Shown here piece by piece: positions 1-8,780 of a stretch of 8,780 nt of DNA. Source of the stretch: Chroococcidiopsidaceae cyanobacterium CP_BM_RX_35 (GTDB taxonomy: Bacteria > Cyanobacteriota > Cyanobacteriia > Cyanobacteriales > Chroococcidiopsidaceae); NCBI GenBank assembly GCA_019242465.1, contig JAFAVL010000302.1, positions 1-8,780 on the forward strand, given 5' to 3'. The notes under the pieces are model-generated. The model worked only from the letters and a program-made list of their open reading frames with translations. It was not told where the DNA came from and searched no databases. The position numbers and the translations under genes are program-made. Position 1 is the first letter of the stretch. Each line of letters starts with the position of its first letter.

Positions 1-402
1 CAGTTTCAAAATAGGTACCTTGACTCCAAAACCGAAATTTTCTAGAAGCAAATTCTCCAGCTTCTCTGCATATTTTGGAGGAAAAAGAGCATAAAGGCTA
101 TTTAGATTAAAAGGAATCGGAACTTTTTTGCCCTCTACGACTCCTAGTACATGGTGATAGTAGTGTCTCCAATCTGTAAATTGGGAGAGGTAATCCCAGA
201 CTTTTTTTGATTTGGTGTGAAAGATGTGAGGTCCATATTTATGAACGAGGATACCATGCTCGTTGTAGTAATCGTAGGCATTGCCGCCAATATGGTCTCG
301 CCGCTCTACAATCAACACTCTTTGCCCAAGCTGAGTCCCAATGCGTTCAGCCATGACACAGGCCGAGTATCCCGCCCCTATGATCAGCCAATCAAATAAC
401 AT
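1..402 (-). CDS. glf: UDP-galactopyranose mutase, N-terminal part (cut by window edge)
   Basis: Flavoenzyme that interconverts UDP-galactopyranose and UDP-galactofuranose in the cytoplasm, supplying the donor for galactofuranosyl transfer. The frame is open from an ATG at 402 to the left edge, giving 134 codons of a family that usually has about 370-390. Visible are the Rossmann FAD-binding motif GAGYSA (residues 9-14), the following acidic/basic strand end VERRDHIGGN (32-41), the family-typical YGPHIFHT (56-63), and VPIPFNL (94-100), which is also characteristic of Glf. The start is supported by GGAG at 414-411, 8 bases upstream of the ATG. It lies 30 bases after the stop that ends the exporter remnant, on the same strand as the two glycosyltransferases, which suggests the pathway uses galactofuranose. 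Nothing visible is broken. The C-terminal half, with most substrate-binding residues, lies outside the window. Family assignment is firm; which glycan it serves is inference. Confidence 0.93.
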   Translation of the reverse strand, partial: MLFDWLIIGAGYSACVMAERIGTQLGQRVLIVERRDHIGGNAYDYYNEHGILVHKYGPHIFHTKSKKVWDYLSQFTDWRHYYHHVLGVVEGKKVPIPFNLNSLYALFPPKYAEKLENLLLENFGFGVKVPILKL

Positions 403-432
403 TGATTTCACTCCGGTTATTTTTTAGACAGA

Positions 433-839
433 TTACATATTTTTGTGAAACATGATACTCATTCCAGAATGGGGACTGAGCCAATAGCCGAAAGTAGCCT
501 GGAAGAGGAATTTAGGGATAGATCGCCTAGCAATCAAAACACCCAGACTAGGAGCGAGACCACAAATTAAAGATGCCATTGTGCAGAGGACAAGTCCTGC
601 TAGAAAGACTCGCTTGCGCCCGTAAATATCTCCTAATGTCCCACTCGGCAGGACTAGACTTGTTGCAGGCAGGGTGTAAGCGTTGACAATCCACTGCAAT
701 CCCGACACATTGGAACCCAGGCCGAGTTGAATTTGGAAAGCGCTACATTCACTATGGTGTCGTTGAAATTAGCCATGAAGAGGTCGAAACACATTGCTGC
801 TAGCACGAGGACTTTAACACGACCTTGATTCATCGCCAT
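433..839 (-). pseudogene. Remnant of a DHA2-type MFS exporter gene (frameshifted and truncated)
   Basis: This is the start of a 14-helix major facilitator drug/metabolite exporter gene, a proton-coupled inner-membrane family usually about 450-500 residues long. The ATG at 839 has AAGG at 848-845, which overlaps the stop codon of the preceding glycosyltransferase gene. The first frame reads a helix with ANFNDTIVNVALSK, the DHA2 helix-1 signature. Homology then moves to the next frame: IQLGLGSNVSGLQWIVNAYT, then the loop motif A GTLGDIYGRKR and the next helices. Between TCC (737-735) and ATT (732-730) there are two bases instead of three, so one A was lost from an A-run at 734-732. After roughly codon 105 of the repaired frame (near 523-528) the family pattern stops, and about 30 unrelated residues run to a TAA at 435-433. 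Only the first three or so helices remain, so it cannot be a working transporter. In the helix-1 motif the usual Leu-Asp is Phe-Asn. Confidence 0.85.
460..471. repeat. Short inverted repeat upstream of glf
   Basis: CATTC (460-464) and GAATG (467-471) form a perfect 5-bp inverted repeat around CA, in the unrelated tail of the exporter pseudogene about 58 bases before the glf start. It could be a protein-binding half-site pair or chance. No -10/-35 pair that I would trust is visible near it. Confidence 0.25.
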
Positions 840-847
840 TGCTACCT

Positions 848-2065
848 TTACTTAAGTGATTCTGTCACTGTTGTCTTGTAGGTAGTAGCGAGAATATTCT
901 GCAAGCTATCAGCAATTTCAAATACAGCTCGATTGTTCACAGCAGCGATATTCGCATGGTAGCGAGCAAAAATTTCCGGCTGAAGAAACTGCTCAACCGC
1001 CTGAGCGATATGGCGAAAACTAGAGATAACTAGACCAACCTCCTTCTGTTGAACCCATTCGGCGTTGTATCGCTCGTGTATTAGTGTGGCAAAATTAAGC
1101 TCCATAATCATTGGTAGCTTCATAACCAGTGCCTCGCTGATGCTACAAGCACCCTGTTTACTAATAAAAAAATCGGCAAGATGCATATAGTAAGGAATAT
1201 CTTTAGTAAAGCCGATGACAAACCGCTTCTGGAGACCTTGGCTCTCGCGCAGAGCCAAAGCTAGTTCTTCATTGCGTCCACAAATAAAGATGAGTTGTAG
1301 CTTTTGTTGAAAACACTCCAGACGTTTGGCGATTTTCAGCATCACTTTGGAGCCATAACCACCGAATAACACAAGTCCGGTGAAACAGTCTGGATCTAAA
1401 CCCAAACGTTGCCTCTCGTTGCCGCGATCACACGAAATCGCTTCATAAAAGCGAGGATGAACAATCGTTCCCGAAGTTGGGATGATTCGCTCCTCCTTTA
1501 CTCCTGAAGAACGAGCTTGCTCTACAGTTTTCTCAGTTCCACAGATCACATAATTTCCCGTTTCCGGTTCTATCCAAAACGCGGGCGGAAAATCAGCGTA
1601 ATCTCCAATAATGGTCACTAAAGGTGTACCTGGTTTTGCCCTCTGTAAACCTTCCCATAGAACTTTGTTATACAAAGGTACTACAGAAACTATCATATCT
1701 GGCTGTTGTTGGTGGCAATATTCCTCAGTAATTCTTACACCGACCTCGTGATTTAGTCTGATAAGTAGTTTATTGAGGCGCATCTTCAGCGGCATAAGCC
1801 ATGTCCAGCCGCTTTTCAACATTCGGTTGTACAATTCATGTCCAGAAATTCCAAATAGCTTGTAGGTAAATACCTTTTTTTGTTCTGCTAAGCTATCCGC
1901 TATTTCGTCCACATCGGTGACACTAATTTGCCAAGGTAGTTGCTGCTGCTCGATGATTGAGCGGAGGGCATTATACATGGCATAATGCCCTCCACCCCCC
2001 TGGCAAGTGATAACATTAATCAAAAACTTCGTTTTCGGAGATGAGGATGATTGCAAGGTTTCCAT
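848..2065 (-). CDS. GT28 / MGDG-synthase-like glycosyltransferase, second copy
   Basis: A 405-residue GT-B fold glycosyltransferase resembling monogalactosyldiacylglycerol synthase: MGDG_synth N-terminal domain (about residues 15-190) followed by a GT28 C-terminal domain (about 225-390). Such enzymes transfer a sugar from a nucleotide donor to a lipid-like acceptor at the membrane face. Visible motifs are the glycine loop GGGGH (23-27), GDYADFPPAFWIEP (154-167), FGGYGS (234-239), ICGRNEEL (261-268) and the donor-site segment SKQGACSISEAL (301-312 region). I see no signal peptide or membrane helix. The ATG at 2065 is the furthest possible start, because an in-frame TAA lies at 2074-2072. No clear Shine-Dalgarno precedes it, so translation may depend on the gene upstream. 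It is clearly paralogous to the next gene, with roughly half the residues alike in the C-terminal domain, but has TD changed to GD and KSG to KQG in the motifs, which suggests a different donor or acceptor. The substrate is unknown. Confidence 0.85.
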   Translation of the reverse strand: METLQSSSSPKTKFLINVITCQGGGGHYAMYNALRSIIEQQQLPWQISVTDVDEIADSLAEQKKVFTYKLFGISGHELYNRMLKSGWTWLMPLKMRLNKLLIRLNHEVGVRITEEYCHQQQPDMIVSVVPLYNKVLWEGLQRAKPGTPLVTIIGDYADFPPAFWIEPETGNYVICGTEKTVEQARSSGVKEERIIPTSGTIVHPRFYEAISCDRGNERQRLGLDPDCFTGLVLFGGYGSKVMLKIAKRLECFQQKLQLIFICGRNEELALALRESQGLQKRFVIGFTKDIPYYMHLADFFISKQGACSISEALVMKLPMIMELNFATLIHERYNAEWVQQKEVGLVISSFRHIAQAVEQFLQPEIFARYHANIAAVNNRAVFEIADSLQNILATTYKTTVTESLK

Positions 2066-2078
2066 AAGGTTTTACGCG

Positions 2079-2113
2079 TGTACTAAGTGATTGGCGTTGC
2101 TTGCTTGTACTAA
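2079..2113. repeat. Direct repeat TGTACTAA in the gap between the two glycosyltransferase genes
   Basis: The 8-mer TGTACTAA occurs at 2079-2086 and again at 2106-2113, 27 bases start to start, inside the 60-base gap between the paralogous genes. It may be a leftover of the tandem duplication, a binding site, or chance. Confidence 0.3.
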
Positions 2114-2125
2114 CGTGTTTGTGTT

Positions 2126-3301
2126 TCATTTCACTCCGTAATGAACATCCGGAACGTGATTGCGCTCTTGGCATACTCCTAACTGGGAGCATTCAAGGAT
2201 TCCTGACAAAATATCAACAACTTCAAACACTGCTTTATTGTTGACAGCGGTGGCATTGGCACGGTAGCGAGCCAGATTTTCCGGCTGGATCAGCTTCTCT
2301 ACAGCTTGGTTAATGTCCCGAAAATTGCCGACTACAATACCAATCCCATTATCCGCAATCCACATGGCTGAGGGCCGTTCTTGAAACAAGCTTAAGGCAT
2401 TGCAATCTGTAATTACTGGCAAGTTCATCGCCACAGCCTCACTAACACCTACCGAGCCGGATTTACCAACGAAAAAATCGGACAAATGCATGTAGTAAGG
2501 AATTTCACTCGTAAACGTTTCAACAAACCTCGGCAAGCGGCTTTGTTGACGGCGCAGGGTTGTTGCTAGTTTTTCGTTGCGTCCGCAAATGAAAATAAGT
2601 TGTAGATTTAGTTGTGATTTCTCCAAACAATCGGCAATCTCCAGCAGCACATTTGACCCCTGACTGCCAAAAGTGATTAAACCAGTAGGCAAATCTGGAT
2701 CTAGTCCTAGGCGTTTTCTCTCGATTGAGCGAGCAACAGTAATGGATTCGTAGAAACAAGGTTGAATTATCACTCCCGAGGTGCGGAAGATTTGCTCCGG
2801 CATGTAACCAAAGTTTTTTGCTTGTTCAACCGCCCGTTCAGTGGGACAAATTAAGAATTGCTCCTGGGGCTCAATCCAGAAGCGGGGTGGGCAATCGGCA
2901 TGATCTGTGATAAAAGTCACGAAGGGGACACTAGGTGACGCTGCCTGCAAACTTTCATAAAGCACCCGATTGATATATGGCATCACTGAAACTACCATGT
3001 CGGGCTTATGCTGCTGCCAGTATCTTTTAAGACGTGCTAACCAAGCAGAATGGTTCAGGCGAATTTGTAGCTTGAACAAAGGAACCAATAGAGGTTCATT
3101 AATAACTTTTGCCCAGGTTTTTTGGAGTACAAATTTATTGTAAAAATCCTGCGAAGTACTCGTCCCAATGATTTCTTTAAAAGCCTCAACTATATGGATT
3201 TCCCAAGGCAATTGCCGCTTCTCGATAACTTTTTGCAAAGCATTGGCAGTGCTGCGATGGCCTGCACCAGCATCATAAACCATTAGATATACTTTCTTCA
3301 T
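2126..3301 (-). CDS. GT28 / MGDG-synthase-like glycosyltransferase, first copy
   Basis: A 391-residue GT-B fold glycosyltransferase related to monogalactosyldiacylglycerol synthase, expected to move a hexose from a nucleotide sugar to a lipophilic acceptor. It keeps the family motifs: GAGH (12-15) at the N-terminal glycine loop, ITDHADCPPRFWIEP (131-145), FGSQGS (211-216), FICGRNEKL (237-245) and the donor-site segment GKSGSVGVSEA (279-289). Its motifs are closer to the family norm than those of the downstream copy, so it may be the more ancestral of the pair. I chose the ATG at 3301. AGGGAA at 3311-3306 gives a short but usable spacing, whereas a GTG at 3304 in the same frame would sit too close to it; the choice changes the protein by one residue. 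It starts 25 bases after the SDR stop. The last 20 or so residues are not shared with the paralogue. True substrates cannot be read from the sequence; a role in glycosylating the product of this locus is inferred from context. Confidence 0.87.
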   Translation of the reverse strand: MKKVYLMVYDAGAGHRSTANALQKVIEKRQLPWEIHIVEAFKEIIGTSTSQDFYNKFVLQKTWAKVINEPLLVPLFKLQIRLNHSAWLARLKRYWQQHKPDMVVSVMPYINRVLYESLQAASPSVPFVTFITDHADCPPRFWIEPQEQFLICPTERAVEQAKNFGYMPEQIFRTSGVIIQPCFYESITVARSIERKRLGLDPDLPTGLITFGSQGSNVLLEIADCLEKSQLNLQLIFICGRNEKLATTLRRQQSRLPRFVETFTSEIPYYMHLSDFFVGKSGSVGVSEAVAMNLPVITDCNALSLFQERPSAMWIADNGIGIVVGNFRDINQAVEKLIQPENLARYRANATAVNNKAVFEVVDILSGILECSQLGVCQERNHVPDVHYGVK

Positions 3302-3329
3302 CACTTTCCCTAATAGGTTTGTATTTAGG

Positions 3330-4241
3330 TTAGGAGCAATCTTGGGTTTTCCTTATTTCTCCGTCTGGTGTTGCGGTGACCATTGTTCTGCTCTCACTAG
3401 GTTTCGACGCAACGCGCATTTGCTTTTCGGCGCGTAATTGGTTGAGCTTGGTCACCCCGATCCACTGGTAAACTTTATCTCCAAATCCTGGGAAAATTTG
3501 GCACAGTGCCAGCAGTAGTCTTGTCGTACCTACTGTCATCGGATCTTGATTGACAACCACTTCCGCCTCATTCTGCTTAATAGCCCTTATTACCGTGCTC
3601 GCTACGTCTTCTGGCTTAGACGTTCCTGATAAACTTGGTGCAGGTATGCCAGTATCAGCAAACATACCTTGTTGCGAAATATATCCTGGACAAATTACCG
3701 AGATCCCAACACCAGTACCTGCCAATTCTTGCCTAACAGCATCACTCCACATGAGCAAACCAGCTTTACTGGCTGAATAAATGCTGTTATAAGCAGGTCC
3801 CTTTTTGGCAGCCAGAGAAGCAATATTGACAATATGGCCACTACCCCGGGATAACATGGTCGGCAGTAGCAAACGGGATAACTCCATAGCAGCCAGTAAG
3901 TTGGTGGATAATACTGACTGGAGATCGGTAGTGGAGTAATCTTGGAAGTTTCTGTATATCTCTATGCCTGCGTTATTGATTAAAATGTCAATTGAACCTG
4001 CAAGCTGATTGATTTGCTCAACGAGGGCTGGCAGCTCTTCTACCCTACTAATGTCGTATGGAATGCCTATCCACTGACCTCCTAAAGCTTTGACTTTGGT
4101 AGCTACCTGCCCTAGCCCCTCCTGCGAACGCGAAACACCAACTACAGTTGCCTTTTCTTTTGCCAAAGCGCGAGCAATAAAGACTCCTATGCCGCGTGAG
4201 GCACCTGTCAAAAGTACTGTCTGACCTGCAATGATTGTCAT
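3330..4241 (-). CDS. Classical short-chain dehydrogenase/reductase (SDR)
   Basis: A 303-residue NAD(P)H-dependent oxidoreductase of the classical SDR family. It carries the cofactor loop TGASRGIG (12-19), the structural NNAG (89-92), and a full catalytic set: Asn114, Ser142 and Tyr155-xxx-Lys159 within YSASK, followed by PGYI (185-188). Arg16 in the glycine loop and SRS after the second strand (37-39) favour NADPH over NADH. The core is normal in length. About 50 extra C-terminal residues (from about 250) include a mildly hydrophobic stretch, as in SDRs that act on lipid substrates. The ATG at 4241 is preceded by GAGG at 4260-4257, a long 15-base spacing, so the ribosome site is weak. It sits 40 bases after the docking-domain gene and 25 before the glycosyltransferases. 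The adjacent PKS module has no ketoreductase domain, so reduction of its keto product in trans is a reasonable inference. A general fatty-acyl or sugar reductase is the alternative. Confidence 0.9.
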   Translation of the reverse strand: MTIIAGQTVLLTGASRGIGVFIARALAKEKATVVGVSRSQEGLGQVATKVKALGGQWIGIPYDISRVEELPALVEQINQLAGSIDILINNAGIEIYRNFQDYSTTDLQSVLSTNLLAAMELSRLLLPTMLSRGSGHIVNIASLAAKKGPAYNSIYSASKAGLLMWSDAVRQELAGTGVGISVICPGYISQQGMFADTGIPAPSLSGTSKPEDVASTVIRAIKQNEAEVVVNQDPMTVGTTRLLLALCQIFPGFGDKVYQWIGVTKLNQLRAEKQMRVASKPSESRTMVTATPDGEIRKTQDCS

Positions 4242-4281
4242 GATTGCTTAACACATCCTCATTCATTAGTACCAACCCAGT

Positions 4282-6150
4282 TCAGCTAGCAGCAATGCAT
4301 TCTTTGAGAGAAGTGAAATGCTTGCCACCCAGCTCAATCTGTCCCTGTTCAACTCCAGTTTTGATTCTGGCAACTAAATACTTCCAGTCTGAGGCGATGA
4401 TATTTGTGCCATGATCTGGCTCAAGTAGACTGGCTAGGGCAATATCGCTACCATATTTGTTCACTAAATTGTATATACCTAAGAAATTGAAAACCCCTGA
4501 TTCGTAAGTTCCACATGGAACCGAGGGATTGTGTACTCCAGTGCAATACTCGTCGTTATTTGGTTTAAACCACTGCATTGACGGATATCCGTGGAAATGA
4601 ACCATCGCTGTACCATTTTTAATCAGTTCCGGTGCGTACAAAGCAGCAGCCAGAGCGATCGCTACCATGACATAGATATCATAAGAGGGTTTGACATCGC
4701 CCACTATAGTATCGATACCTTTTGGTAATTGGAGTAACAACCTATCTTGCAGCCCAATCCTGAGCAAGTCAGTTTCTAGATTAAGATCTGTTTTAATTGC
4801 GCCTGAACGAGAACTGACAAGCCAGATGTCTGGTAGCTGCTTAAATACATCTTTTTCCCCAATCCTGGTTTTGATATACCTCCTACCGATTTCATTTTGA
4901 CGCAGTTCATCACGACTGAATCCTTCGATAGGGGGCAGACTTTCCCACTCGCTTTCAGATATTTCTACAGCACCTAGGTATTGTGGCGGTTCAGCGTAGG
5001 CAACAAAACCATAAGAAACGCCTGTTCTGCCATTTGCCATCCAGTCTACAATATCTCTGTGAGGCTTTCTTTTAACTACATCGTCAATTTTAAAACCAGA
5101 AGGTAGTAGACCCGTTGATGCTAGCTCTTTACCCAATCTGACTAATTGATCTGCATAGATAGATTCTTTCGGGTCATACTCACCTACCTCAAATCGCGAG
5201 AGAGACAGTGGCAGAATCGGTACATAAATTTTAGGAATTAAAGAGTTAACAACGAATGAGTCAACTGACTCTACAGGAAACACAGAGTCTGAGAGGTTCA
5301 TATTTAAAATAGAAATCTTGGTCTCAGAAACCCCAATCACAATTTCAGAAAATGTTTTGATCAGGGTATTTACACCAATAGGGATTTTTTGTTGATAAGG
5401 GACACTTGGATCAACAAACTTTTCATTAATTTCTGCTAAAACTATGACTTGAGTATTTGTGGGGTCTTCAAGCGGTTGAATATTTTCTTCAGCCCAACTG
5501 ATAAATTGCATAATCTTAGAAGCAGATATCTGGCGTTTTTTTAAAAAAAAGCGAGAATATAATTGATAGATTGTATCTACCACAAACGTCTTCGCTTTGC
5601 CAAGTAAAGAAGTATGCTTTTCAACATCAACGACAGCACTAATACCAGTTTTAATCACTCTTGCTGTGATGTTTTTTTTCCATTTAGTGAAAGGAATAGT
5701 GATTTCGTACTGAACTTCTTTAGTTGCTCCCTCCCAAGGTATGAGCTGAACTCCATTGTCCCGCAGCTTATGTTCTAACTCTTCTCTGAACTTCAAAATT
5801 ATTTCTTTTTTGTATCCATCTGGCAAAGGTCTAAAGGTAACTTTTAGCTTCTTTGCCATGACTTTTGGATCAATAATGGGAGGGATAAAGCCTAATCTAC
5901 GGGAAAAACCTCCAACCAAGCGCCCAATTGTCTGCAAGCTGAGGTCTTGAGTTTTAGCTGCAGAATCATCACTACCAGTTGAGTTATTACTTTGAAGAAA
6001 AGCAAGAATTTCTGTTTTGCGTTCAGCTAGCTCTGTGCGTAGTGTTGGTGTCAGTACTCCCTTGGGAGAATTAATTTTGAGTTTATCATTATCAGTCCAT
6101 AACTGAACGCCTTGTTGATTAAGGTTTTCCAAAAGCTCAGATACGTTCAT
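4282..6150 (-). CDS. Protein with N-terminal TubC-like docking domain and an unassigned body of about 550 residues
   Basis: 622 residues. Residues 1-53 match the TubC N-terminal docking domain of PKS/NRPS proteins: ELLENLNQQGVQLW, a short beta-hairpin with DKLKI, then KGVLTP and a closing helix. Such domains bind the C-terminal tail of the partner protein that precedes them in an assembly line. A Ser/Asn/Asp-rich linker (54-66) follows, then a body I do not recognise. It has no condensation HHxxxDG, no adenylation motifs, no thioesterase GxSxG in a convincing setting and no carrier-protein serine motif. An Ala-rich hydrophobic stretch lies near 494-508 (YVMVAIALAAALYAP). It is followed by a segment dense in possible catalytic residues: VHFHGYP (517-523), two cysteines (536, 546) and EPDHGTN (577-583). 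The ATG at 6150 has AGAGAGG ending at 6161, 10 bases upstream, a good site. It lies 47 bases after the PKS gene. The docking domain and position suggest it acts on a PKS-bound intermediate; the reaction is unknown. Confidence 0.85.
   Translation of the reverse strand: MNVSELLENLNQQGVQLWTDNDKLKINSPKGVLTPTLRTELAERKTEILAFLQSNNSTGSDDSAAKTQDLSLQTIGRLVGGFSRRLGFIPPIIDPKVMAKKLKVTFRPLPDGYKKEIILKFREELEHKLRDNGVQLIPWEGATKEVQYEITIPFTKWKKNITARVIKTGISAVVDVEKHTSLLGKAKTFVVDTIYQLYSRFFLKKRQISASKIMQFISWAEENIQPLEDPTNTQVIVLAEINEKFVDPSVPYQQKIPIGVNTLIKTFSEIVIGVSETKISILNMNLSDSVFPVESVDSFVVNSLIPKIYVPILPLSLSRFEVGEYDPKESIYADQLVRLGKELASTGLLPSGFKIDDVVKRKPHRDIVDWMANGRTGVSYGFVAYAEPPQYLGAVEISESEWESLPPIEGFSRDELRQNEIGRRYIKTRIGEKDVFKQLPDIWLVSSRSGAIKTDLNLETDLLRIGLQDRLLLQLPKGIDTIVGDVKPSYDIYVMVAIALAAALYAPELIKNGTAMVHFHGYPSMQWFKPNNDEYCTGVHNPSVPCGTYESGVFNFLGIYNLVNKYGSDIALASLLEPDHGTNIIASDWKYLVARIKTGVEQGQIELGGKHFTSLKECIAAS
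4655..4662. repeat. HIP1 octamer GCGATCGC
   Basis: A single copy of the palindrome GCGATCGC, which is strongly over-represented in many cyanobacterial genomes, lies within the docking-domain gene. It supports a cyanobacterial source but is not evidence of a local function. Confidence 0.6.
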
Positions 6151-6197
6151 AAATTCACAACCTCTCTTTTTCTATATTTTTTTGGCTCGGCTTGCGA

Positions 6198-8780
6198 TTA
6201 AACCTCAAAAAGTTCTGACTCAGAAGCTTCTAATTGTTTAGCTAAGTACTGTGAAAGCGACTCAATAGTCGGATAATGTATCAGCAGGAGTGGAGACATC
6301 TCAAGTCCAAGAGATTGTTTCCCAGCGCTAGCAATGCCAATCGCCAGCACTGAATCCAGACCGTAGCTATCGAAAGGTACTCGGACATGTATGTCATCGG
6401 GTTTGACTCCCAGCTCTTTGGCAATTTGGCCAACTAGCCAAGCTTGAATATCGTCCGCTGTCAGAGACCTTAGATTGAGCTGCTGCACTAATACGCCCTC
6501 TGATTCGGTAGTGCCAACAAATTCGGATTCAGTTTGCCCAAGAAGGTTAGTCGTTGAGGGCTGGCCATTTCTGTGACCATTGCTATTAGGTTCAAACCAG
6601 TAGCGCTTTCGCTGCCAGGGGTAGGTTGGCAGTTGCACGCGTTGACGTGAGTAGTCCCGGTCAAAACCCGACCAGTCTATTTTTACTCCATGCACATATA
6701 AAGTCCCCAAACTCTCAAGCAGCTGTTGCCAATCATCTAGAATCGGCTTTGGCCCAACTTCCACAAATATTTCGTATCCCTGTTGAGCTAAGGTATTCAT
6801 GCTGGCGGCACTTAGAGGTTGTTGCACTCGACGGCACCAATATTCAGGGGTAGCTATTTGGGCAGTAGCTAGTTCACCAGTAAGATTGGAAACTAGGGAA
6901 ATTCGTGGTTGGGAGTAGGTTACTTGCCTCGTAACTTGCTCAAAATTCCCTAACACAGATTCCATAACCAACTTCAATCCGTCTTCCAAGCTGAAAACTC
7001 CAGCTACACAGGCAGCAACGAATTCCCCTATATCGCGACCTATGACCGCGTCGGGTTCAATGCCCCAGGATTTCCATAACTGGAAGAGGGCATACTCCAA
7101 AGCGAAGAGAGCAGGGGAGCCAGTTGCGTGCGGAGAGAAGTCCGAGCGGAGGTCTCCTCCGCTCGGAACTTCGGAGGGTCCCCCCCGTTGAGCAAATTGG
7201 AGTGGAGCAGGGGAAGCAAAAAGTACCTCAAGTAGAGGCTCTTCTAAATAGGGCCGCAAAAGTTCATTGCAATGGTCAAGGGCTGAACGGAAGGCAGGTT
7301 GGGTTTCGTACAGCTGACGTCCCATTCCCACATACTCGGAGCCAAGACCTGTGAAAAAGAAGGCGATTTTAGGAGGAACTAACGCCTTTCCTTTAAATAA
7401 TCCTGCTGCTTCTTGCCCAACACTGAAGGCGGCAAGCTTTTCACTGAGTTCGGCACATGAAGATACTATCACACTTAGTCGATGCTGAAAGTGTGATCGC
7501 CCGCTATTGGCAGTAAAGCAAATATCTCCTAAAGCTAAGTCTGGGTTTTCAGTTAGGTGCTTCTCGTACCGCTCGGCTAACTGGACAAGAGCCTCGTCTG
7601 TCTTAGCTGACAGCGCCAGTATGTGCAGAGGTCGCTCTACTGACCTTTGGCCTGGCGCTTTCACCGGAGCCTCTTCCAGAACCACATGAGCATTGGTGCC
7701 GCTAAAGCCAAAGGCACTCACTCCCGCCAGCCGCCGCTTTTCTCTTGCATGCCAGGGCATTCGCTCCGTAGGAACTTTCAGTGGCAATTTATCCCAGTTG
7801 ATGTAAGGATTGGGCTGCTCAAAGTGTAGGTGGGGTGGAATCTCTCCGTGTTGCAGGGCAAGCACCACCTTGATCAGACTTGCGACGCCAGAAGCTGGTT
7901 CTAAGTGACCCATGTTGGTTTTTACCGATCCAATAACCAAAGGTTGGTCTTGAGGGCGGTTCTTGCCATACACTTCCCCCAAAGCTGCTACCTCAATCGG
8001 TTCTCCTACAGATGTCCCGGTGCCCTGAACCTCTACATAGTCAATCTGAGCTGAATCTACGCCGCCATTCTCTAGGGCTTGGCGAATCACGGCTTGCTCA
8101 GATGGTCCGTTAGGGGCAATCAAGCTACTACTGCGACCATTGTGGTTGACCGCAGAGCCTCGAATCAGAGCCAAGATGTTGTCCCCGTCAGCCAAAGCAT
8201 CTGAGAGCCGCTTGAGGAGGATGACGCCACATCCTTCTCCTTTGACAAAACCGCTGGCAGTAGCATCGAAGGTTTTGCAGCGACCGTCGGGATTCAGCAT
8301 CCGCGTCCTGGAGAGAGCAATACTGGTGTCCGGCACGAGATTCAAACCAACTCCGCCAGCTAGAGCTAGATTGCACTCTCCCAAGCGCAAACTCTGACAA
8401 GCCAAATGCACTGTTACTAGCGAAGAAGAGCAGGACGTATCGACAGCCATACTAGGACCTTTTAGCCCTAAAACATATGACAGGCGACCAGCAGCTACGC
8501 TCAAAGAGTTGCCGATGGCGGAAAAAGCATCTATCTGGGTTGGATCTCCTAATGACGAGATTGCCCTGTTGTAGTCATTTATGTAAATGCCAATAAACAC
8601 GCCTGTGGAGCTGTTATATAAATGCTCTGGTGCCAGACTGGCATTTTCTAGAGCCTCCCAACCAACCTCCAGCAACAGCCGTTGCTGGGGGTCCATACTT
8701 ACTGCTTCCCGCGCTGAGATCCCGAAAAACTCAGGGTTAAAGGCATCCACCTGAGCCAAAAAACCCCCTTCGCGGGTAGA
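6198..8780 (-). CDS. Type I polyketide synthase, C-terminal part: KS - degenerate AT - ACP (cut by window edge)
   Basis: 860 codons are visible, open to the right edge. The TTG at 8759 is internal, because STREGGF before it matches the ketosynthase consensus; about 65-70 KS residues and any upstream domains are outside. Numbered from the first visible codon: KS to about 372 with DTSCSSS (Cys117), KTNMGH (Lys287, His292) and GFSGTNAH. The HGTGT motif reads QGTGT, with Gln252 (codon CAG at 8027-8025) for the first catalytic His. A KS-AT linker follows, then an AT remnant (about 470-685). There GQGSQ is GLGSE and GHSxGE is GRDIGE, so Asp583 (GAT, 7034-7032) replaces the nucleophilic Ser. About 80-90 residues between GVFSLEDGLK and FEQV, including the region of the second catalytic His, are missing. 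A post-AT LPTYPWQR linker and an ACP with YGLDS (Ser810, the phosphopantetheine site) complete it. There is no KR, DH, ER or TE. The ACP resembles those of Hgl-type cyanobacterial lipid synthases. The C-terminal tail is acidic (ASESELFEV) and may be the ligand of the next protein's docking domain. Confidence 0.92.
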   Translation of the reverse strand, partial: STREGGFLAQVDAFNPEFFGISAREAVSMDPQQRLLLEVGWEALENASLAPEHLYNSSTGVFIGIYINDYNRAISSLGDPTQIDAFSAIGNSLSVAAGRLSYVLGLKGPSMAVDTSCSSSLVTVHLACQSLRLGECNLALAGGVGLNLVPDTSIALSRTRMLNPDGRCKTFDATASGFVKGEGCGVILLKRLSDALADGDNILALIRGSAVNHNGRSSSLIAPNGPSEQAVIRQALENGGVDSAQIDYVEVQGTGTSVGEPIEVAALGEVYGKNRPQDQPLVIGSVKTNMGHLEPASGVASLIKVVLALQHGEIPPHLHFEQPNPYINWDKLPLKVPTERMPWHAREKRRLAGVSAFGFSGTNAHVVLEEAPVKAPGQRSVERPLHILALSAKTDEALVQLAERYEKHLTENPDLALGDICFTANSGRSHFQHRLSVIVSSCAELSEKLAAFSVGQEAAGLFKGKALVPPKIAFFFTGLGSEYVGMGRQLYETQPAFRSALDHCNELLRPYLEEPLLEVLFASPAPLQFAQRGGPSEVPSGGDLRSDFSPHATGSPALFALEYALFQLWKSWGIEPDAVIGRDIGEFVAACVAGVFSLEDGLKLVMESVLGNFEQVTRQVTYSQPRISLVSNLTGELATAQIATPEYWCRRVQQPLSAASMNTLAQQGYEIFVEVGPKPILDDWQQLLESLGTLYVHGVKIDWSGFDRDYSRQRVQLPTYPWQRKRYWFEPNSNGHRNGQPSTTNLLGQTESEFVGTTESEGVLVQQLNLRSLTADDIQAWLVGQIAKELGVKPDDIHVRVPFDSYGLDSVLAIGIASAGKQSLGLEMSPLLLIHYPTIESLSQYLAKQLEASESELFEV
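7119..7187 (-). repeat. GC-rich hairpin repeat inserted in frame in the AT domain
   Basis: About 69 bp (23 codons, from Arg to Gly in FAQ-RGG...ATG-SPAL) interrupt the AT where family members run directly from the N-terminal helices into xQPALFALEYAL. It encodes a low-complexity Gly/Pro/Ser peptide that no AT has. At its centre is a perfect 12-bp inverted repeat, TCCGAGCGGAGG (7141-7152) and CCTCCGCTCGGA (7156-7167), with a 3-base loop. The stem extends by GAAG/CTTC (7137-7140, 7169-7172) past one bulged base. A seven-C run lies beside it. Its base composition is far more GC-rich than the flanks. Exact edges are estimates, and no clear target-site duplication is visible. It looks like a member of a dispersed cyanobacterial hairpin repeat family; membership is inferred, not tested. 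Confidence 0.7.

Follow-up and report, generated by a model that had tools for sequence, protein, structure and literature searches.

Why would a polyketide synthase (PKS) module keep an open reading frame, a ketosynthase (KS) and an acyl carrier protein (ACP) domain after its acyltransferase (AT) has been disabled? The question is raised by an 8,780-nt stretch of DNA from Chroococcidiopsidaceae cyanobacterium CP_BM_RX_35 (GCA_019242465.1, contig JAFAVL010000302.1, positions 1-8,780; hereafter the window), in which a protein with an altered KS (KS*), an AT remnant (AT0) and an ACP is followed by a second protein, ORF2. The module is real, conserved and unusual. We consider it likely to be a non-elongating relay module of a cis-AT PKS, set in a glycolipid cluster resembling the ngl (nostochloroside-type) cluster, and the dead-AT station probably survives only to pass a finished chain to a docked enzyme.

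A dead acyltransferase beside an altered ketosynthase

By Pfam, the KS*-AT0-ACP protein comprises a KS, a KS-AT linker, a partial AT and an ACP, with the following features:

6198..8780, minus strand: KS*-AT0-ACP protein, 860 residues, an open frame with Pfam domains whose 5' end lies beyond the window edge
7818..8777, minus strand: KS* domain, without the first ~58 profile positions (PF00109, residues 2-195, profile 59-252; PF02801, residues 203-321)
8430..8432, minus strand: active-site Cys117 of the KS, kept in DTSCSSS
8025..8027, minus strand: Gln252, replacing the first catalytic His of the KS
7905..7907, minus strand: His292, the second catalytic His of the KS, kept in KTNMGH
7434..7625, minus strand: KS-AT linker, CurL-like (PF22621, residues 386-449)
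6615..7370, minus strand: AT0 with post-AT linker (PF00698, residues 474-606, and alignment)
7332..7349, minus strand: GLGSE motif of AT0
7122..7208, minus strand: 87-bp in-frame insert (29 residues), a dispersed repeat
7023..7040, minus strand: GRDIGE, with Asp583 at the position of the nucleophilic Ser of the AT (GHSxGE expected)
~6942..6968, minus strand: junction of the 84-residue loss from the AT, placed by alignment
6243..6440, minus strand: ACP domain (PF00550, residues 781-846)
6342..6362, minus strand: GLDS phosphopantetheine site of the ACP
6201..6227, minus strand: acidic C-terminal tail ASESELFEV, the proposed ligand of the ORF2 docking domain; similar tails occur on stand-alone ACPs beside ORF2 homologues

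The match of AT0 to PF00698 covers profile positions 2-114 of 319 only (87 bits). A first-pass annotation made from the letters alone had described an AT with Asp in place of the nucleophilic Ser, GLGSE in place of GQGSQ and a loss of 80-90 residues; all three hold, the loss amounting to 84 residues, since the small subdomain has 15 residues in the window against 99 in the intact AT of locus L015, and the AFHS motif is among those missing. The altered KS active site that it proposed is equally clear, with Cys117 kept and VEVQGTGT in place of VEAHGTGT. The foreign repeat that it saw inserted without loss of frame is absent from the closest relative (P0122) and contains a 12-nt inverted repeat; partial copies, spanning 26 to 78 of its 87 bases, were found in 8 of 292 cyanobacterial genomes and at least two copies in five of these, with at most three candidates scored per genome.

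A scan of the genome collection with the whole protein as query gave 68 loci. Thirteen of them (L001-L013) have an ORF2 neighbour at 68-82% identity, with a short-chain dehydrogenase/reductase (SDR) nearby in 12, L006 ending before the SDR. Neither the GHSxGE of the AT nor the His of HGTGT in the KS is present in any of the 13. The first-pass annotation had named a normal AT in homologues at this position as evidence against its reading; a search for one among these 13 loci turned up none. Two further loci, L099 and L117, were reached through ORF2, and database proteins were added by a search with residues 450-780, the dead AT (120 listed of 2411 matches). Proteins whose C-terminal tail ends in FE plus one of I, V, L and F were taken as the family; they fill 57 rows, at least five of them being counted twice, once as a locus and once as a database protein.

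The KS Cys is kept in all 55 family rows that cover the site (two rows are partial), the first His is replaced in 57 of 57 (Gln in 49, Asn in 8), and the second His (KTN.GH) and the GLDS site of the ACP are each kept in 57 of 57. The AT Ser is lost in all 56 rows that still have an AT; the remaining row, L099, has no AT core and an open frame. Although 41 of the 56 Ser-less rows, window excluded, came from the dead-AT query, the loss is also found in L001-L013 (whole-protein query) and in L117 (via ORF2), independently of that search. The small subdomain retains 8-31 residues in 52 rows, 39 and 44 in two rows, and 99 and 106 in P0175 and P0183; Ser-bearing ATs in the same alignment have 98-107. 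The Ser and His losses are thus family-wide; the subdomain loss, which P0175 and P0183 do not show, is not.

The first His of a KS, that of HGTGT, acts in decarboxylation. A kept Cys together with a lost HGTGT His, the two marks of a KS0, is found in the family. Three other assignments were rejected. A one-off lesion or sequencing error is ruled out by traits common to separate assemblies and genera, and a KSQ, the decarboxylating loading KS, by the kept Cys117, Gln sitting instead at the His position. A trans-AT PKS is not indicated either: upstream modules in L001, L012, L013 and L099 show full or near-full AT matches, and a PF00698 search of three relatives (G001, G002 and G005) revealed no discrete AT in the cluster, every match inside it lying in a modular PKS frame. 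Five matches in frames of fewer than 500 residues (295 and 462 in G001, 294 and 328 in G002, 297 in G005) all lie outside it. The free-standing AT for which the first-pass annotation suggested looking was thus not encountered in the clusters of these three genomes.

Selection and the order of losses

We compared constraint across the domains as Nei-Gojobori medians of dN/dS in 9 of the 13 syntenic loci (L006, L007, L010 and L013 left out), divided into group A, six Nostoc-type loci giving 15 pairs that are not independent, and group B, three loci. Values for the KS*-AT0-ACP protein in group A were 0.067 for KS*, 0.080 for the ACP, 0.130 for the KS-AT linker and 0.260 (0.225-0.491) for AT0; the intact upstream module gave 0.089 for the KS, 0.159 for the ACP, 0.275 for the linker and 0.138 (0.087-0.192) for the AT. 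Group B gave 0.071, 0.106, 0.219 and 0.213 for KS*, ACP, linker and AT0, against 0.081, 0.079, 0.313 and 0.130 for the corresponding domains upstream. Constraint on AT0 is relaxed yet not absent, about linker-like, and KS and ACP are constrained as usual. The earlier description of a dead AT in a protein otherwise under selection is therefore right: this dN/dS check finds KS* and ACP constrained, and the remnant lacks the residues that an AT needs and is held less tightly than the intact AT next door.

In a KS tree from a quick search, with 55 family rows and 16 others of our choice, the family falls on one side of a branch with an SH-aLRT value of 88, below star level. P0175 and P0183 lie within a seven-row KS clade whose other five members lack the subdomain. 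Unordered parsimony assigns two changes of subdomain state inside the family and counts them as two regains. Since an 84-residue subdomain hardly regrows, repeated independent loss is likelier, provided that regain by recombination is excluded; recombination with another AT is a possible source of the full subdomain in P0175 and P0183, for which the closest match outside the pair is 64%. Over the wider tree of 71 rows, a sample mostly drawn by similarity to a dead AT, parsimony requires seven changes for the subdomain, five for the AT Ser and two for the KS His.

ORF2 carries a docking domain and a predicted aldolase fold

The neighbouring gene encodes a protein with a recognizable domain at each end:

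4282..6150, minus strand: ORF2, 622 residues, with docking domain, unassigned middle part and predicted class II aldolase fold
5983..6150, minus strand: N-terminal TubC-type β-hairpin docking domain (bHD) (PF18563, E 7e-22; AerJ bHD 8aqq, TM 0.87, 1.2 Å)
4285..5175, minus strand: predicted class II aldolase-like domain with invariant H518, H520 and H580 (His codons 4591-4599 and 4411-4413)

The TubC-type assignment of the N-terminus is borne out by both PF18563 and the bHD fold. In the predicted structure, residues 326-622 form a class II aldolase fold, and H518, H520 and H580, candidates for a three-His metal site, are invariant in 52 rows. The HxH...H spacing, taken as sequence spacing only, is 62 in ORF2 and 64 in six of nine PF00596 proteins, the other three differing. 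A link to class II aldolases at the level of sequence was sought by Pfam, PDB profile search and HHalign, and failed by all three: three ORF2 proteins gave no PF00596 match at a maximum E of 10, with HMMER filters that drop most weak matches, HHalign of ORF2 against nine aldolases returned a probability of 1%, and genome G004, which carries ORF2, has no PF00596 match. ORF2 thus resembles the class II aldolase superfamily (FucA, RhuA, YgbL, NovR) in predicted fold and in a similar HxH...H spacing, and differs from it in giving no PF00596 or HHalign match and in its proposed substrate, which would be an ACP-bound chain rather than a sugar phosphate.

In all 20 loci compared, ORF2 is accompanied by a tailed ACP, which is a protein of its own in 18 and part of a KS* protein in two. 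What stays constant is therefore the pairing of ACP and ORF2; KS*-AT0 has the appearance of an adaptor. Stand-alone tailed ACPs with ORF2 homologues occur in many cyanobacteria (L100-L116 and L118). At L105, the sole such locus read by Pfam, the ORF2 homologue accompanies Pfa-type lipid synthase genes and a PapA-like acyltransferase. Genomes G387 and G283 have two full-length ORF2 copies each, those of G283 lying one in a KS* setting (L099) and the other in a stand-alone ACP setting (L107).

Gene cluster context

The minus-strand gene run of the window continues from the KS*-AT0-ACP protein and ORF2 through an SDR, two lipid glycosyltransferases of the monogalactosyldiacylglycerol (MGDG) synthase type, a piece of a major facilitator superfamily (MFS) transporter and the start of a mutase-like gene:

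3330..4241, minus strand: SDR (PF00106)
2126..3304, minus strand: lipid glycosyltransferase, MGDG-synthase type (PF06925, PF04101)
848..2065, minus strand: second lipid glycosyltransferase, likewise MGDG-synthase type (PF06925, PF04101)

The incomplete frame at the window end, the start of a protein only, is presumably UDP-galactopyranose-mutase-like. Within positions 1-708 of the window it adjoins the MFS frame, which has just 91 residues, matching relatives over ~64 of them, against ~520-535 residues in the relatives; a rearrangement, a frame break or an assembly join may lie behind this.

More of the cluster is seen in L001, in the order AMP-ligase, ACP, CylC-like candidate, KS-AT-KR-ACP (KR, ketoreductase), KS*-AT0-ACP, ORF2, SDR, glycosyltransferases and MFS. 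Upstream of the PKS, the AMP-binding protein is one that we take to be a fatty acyl-AMP ligase (FAAL), and the protein after the ACP, whose AurF match stays below threshold (21.8 bits against a cut-off of 29.6), we take to be CylC-like. Terminal frames of L001 and L008 resemble RTX proteins on visual inspection. Two KS-AT-KR-ACP modules are present in L012, and in L013 and L099 a fully reducing KS-AT-DH-ER-KR-ACP module (DH, dehydratase; ER, enoylreductase) precedes KS*.

This arrangement resembles the ngl (pks3) cluster of Nostoc punctiforme ATCC 29133, whose products, the nostochlorosides, are chlorinated gulose glycolipids that carry a C21 tail built on palmitate (Glasser et al. 2024, PMC10849952; this and the other papers cited by PMC number are used as far as their text was available). 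That cluster has a FAAL, CylC and CylK homologues, the latter being NglO with an RTX domain, and a glycosyltransferase; its KS* is marked as carrying an inactivating mutation, the odd C21 length is ascribed to cleavage of a larger PKS product, and the organism is called genetically tractable (PMC10849952). Set against that description, L001 offers an AMP-ligase that may be the FAAL, an ACP, a CylC-like candidate, a modular PKS, KS* and glycosyltransferases acting on lipids. In the window, where the upstream half of the cluster is missing, the ngl-type combination of KS*, SDR and two lipid glycosyltransferases is found together. The main text of PMC10849952 mentions the KS change, and neither AT loss nor an ORF2 fold appears in the part available.

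Because ORF2 homologues adjoin PfaD-type genes, membership of the heterocyst glycolipid (hgl) clusters was also considered. It was rejected: the L105 setting is a Pfa-type lipid synthase, and the hgl-like region of HT-58-2 lies elsewhere than L012, according to the available text of PMC8073705. L012, the HT-58-2 locus, falls within a region likened by antiSMASH to carbamidocyclophanes (PMC8073705).

A proposed relay and its alternatives

A relay would work as follows. The finished acyl chain would move from the last extending ACP to Cys117 of KS*, and transacylation would then place it, unextended, on the ACP of the KS*-AT0-ACP protein; without the first catalytic His of the KS and with a dead AT, no malonyl unit would be added. 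The C-terminal tail of the ACP would then dock the β-hairpin domain of ORF2, whose aldolase-like domain would work on the chain end, perhaps with the SDR, and glycosylation would be the last step. With no extender to load, the AT would first have lost its Ser; loss of the small subdomain would have followed in most lineages, with AT0 left as a structural spacer that may be dispensable altogether. The scheme draws on the residues, deletions, conservation and synteny observed, on the predicted fold of ORF2 and on its pairing with tailed ACPs. It bears on the earlier suggestion that the ACP is loaded in trans or by direct transfer: direct transfer of a chain fits better, and loading of an extender in trans is unlikely, the first KS His being gone in 57 of 57 rows.

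Several points weigh against this scheme. Gln and Asn also donate hydrogen bonds, so that loss of decarboxylation is not certain. From the published carbon positions and the module order seen in L013 and L099, two extending modules would be expected to give a C20 thioester whose carbonyl becomes carbon 2 of the lipid, with carbon 1 unaccounted for; the ngl lipid is C21, and extension followed by loss of a carbon would also explain it. The upstream KS-AT linker is as loose as AT0 (0.275 and 0.313 in the two groups), so that a raised dN/dS is in itself no proof of lost function. The AlphaFold model of the KS*-AT0-ACP protein is poor (pLDDT 57), its KS part included, and we build no claim on its structure. 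Finally, for a module of the irumamycin PKS in which the AT has Gly in place of Ser, extension is proposed to go ahead on malonyl supplied by an adjacent AT (PMC11672594).

The strongest alternative, which we nevertheless regard as unlikely, is accordingly a module that still elongates: KS* would decarboxylate with Gln or Asn and the second His, which is kept throughout the family, malonyl would come from a neighbouring AT or FabD, and ORF2 would remove one carbon. The irumamycin case, in which a dead cis AT (module 12) is served by the preceding one (PMC11672594), and the cleavage invoked by the ngl authors for the C21 lipid (PMC10849952) both lend it some weight. It sits poorly with the loss of the first His throughout the family while the upstream KSs of L001, L008, L099 and L117 keep HGTGT, and also with the description of ngl, in which a KS is itself flagged as inactivated (PMC10849952).

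An AT remnant kept for a structural or docking role, whether as a spacer between KS and ACP or as a binding site for ORF2 or for a trans AT, is less probable still, and with it the first-pass comparison to AT docking remnants of trans-AT lines. Its dN/dS of 0.21-0.26 is well below 1, and the N-terminal AT part and post-AT sequence are kept in rows other than L099, both of which speak for such a role. L099, however, has lost the core entirely in an open frame, and the leftover subdomain varies from 8 to 44 residues outside the two full rows; because of this loss and this variation we do not see AT0 as a preserved docking remnant. A decaying pseudogene on its way out, to which the large in-frame deletion and repeat insert of the window copy and the raised AT dN/dS might point, is very improbable given the open frame, the low dN/dS of KS* (0.067) and ACP (0.080), synteny and conserved residues across several genera, and an N. 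punctiforme ngl cluster that carries KS* and makes its product (PMC10849952).

Building on the non-elongating relay, we speculate, and hold it as a possibility rather than an expectation, that KS*-AT0-ACP works with ORF2 as a terminal unit for relay and carbon editing. A decayed cis-AT module would act as the adaptor through which modular polyketide chains reach an ACP-ORF2 pair that is elsewhere seen in Pfa-type lipid clusters; ORF2, as a docked class II aldolase/decarboxylase-like enzyme, would make or break a carbon bond at the chain end, giving the odd C21 lipid with its 1,2-diol. Relatives of OtnC/YgbL carry out decarboxylation to a hydroxymethyl ketone; an analogous decarboxylation here, followed by reduction by the neighbouring SDR, would be one example. 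To our knowledge, no aldolase-fold enzyme docked onto a polyketide carrier has been known before. ORF2 is a specific candidate gene for the odd-numbered chain and vicinal diol of ngl lipids.

Other decayed acyltransferases

Dead ATs with GYGVGE, GHGVGE or GDGVGE beside a KS with intact HGTGT occur in L014, L019 (PKS 9704-12829), P0179, P0193, P0195 and P0211, and the small subdomain is shortened in all of these except P0179. AT decay of this type thus seems to recur in cyanobacterial PKS modules. P0205 (labelled Anabaena lutea) combines a KS with VETQGTAT, an AT with GHNIGE, a shortened subdomain and a different C-terminal tail, and is possibly a second origin of such a relay. The KS-AT proteins of L028 (PKS 9794-12535) and L029 (9800-12535) have an AT with GYDVGE and keep a TFHS motif, and an ACP motif was not found in either; the neighbours of the L028 protein include, on visual inspection, FAAL-like and CylC-like genes.

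Comparison with known systems

Within the family described here, the AT small subdomain is seen at full, partial and near-zero length, with one member lacking the AT core, and no row covering the KS His or the AT Ser position retains that residue. Among titles and abstract openings of the open-licence PMC literature, we found neither the AT loss described here nor the docking of an aldolase-fold protein to a PKS, the irumamycin Ser-to-Gly AT aside. Module 12 of irumamycin is the nearest case of a dead cis AT, alike in having lost the Ser of GHS, to Gly, in a cis-AT module; it differs in that extension with malonyl from AT11 is proposed, and neither subdomain loss nor a KS change is mentioned in the text available (PMC11672594). 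The loss of the KS His in the present family argues against the same explanation.

Non-elongating relay modules are known from trans-AT lines, and this family suggests a route to one from an ordinary cis-AT module. The nearest worked example that we found for the proposed mechanism is MmpE of mupirocin, a trans-AT line in which, by the available account, the chain goes from a KS0 to the ACP of MmpE itself, where an oxidoreductase acts on it (PMC7619045). There, and by proposal here, a KS takes the chain and passes it to a second ACP for another enzyme, with a docking domain as the link to the line. The mupirocin line has no cis AT, whereas the module described here is a cis-AT module with a decayed AT, and the enzyme that would act on its chain is a separate, docked protein with a predicted aldolase fold.

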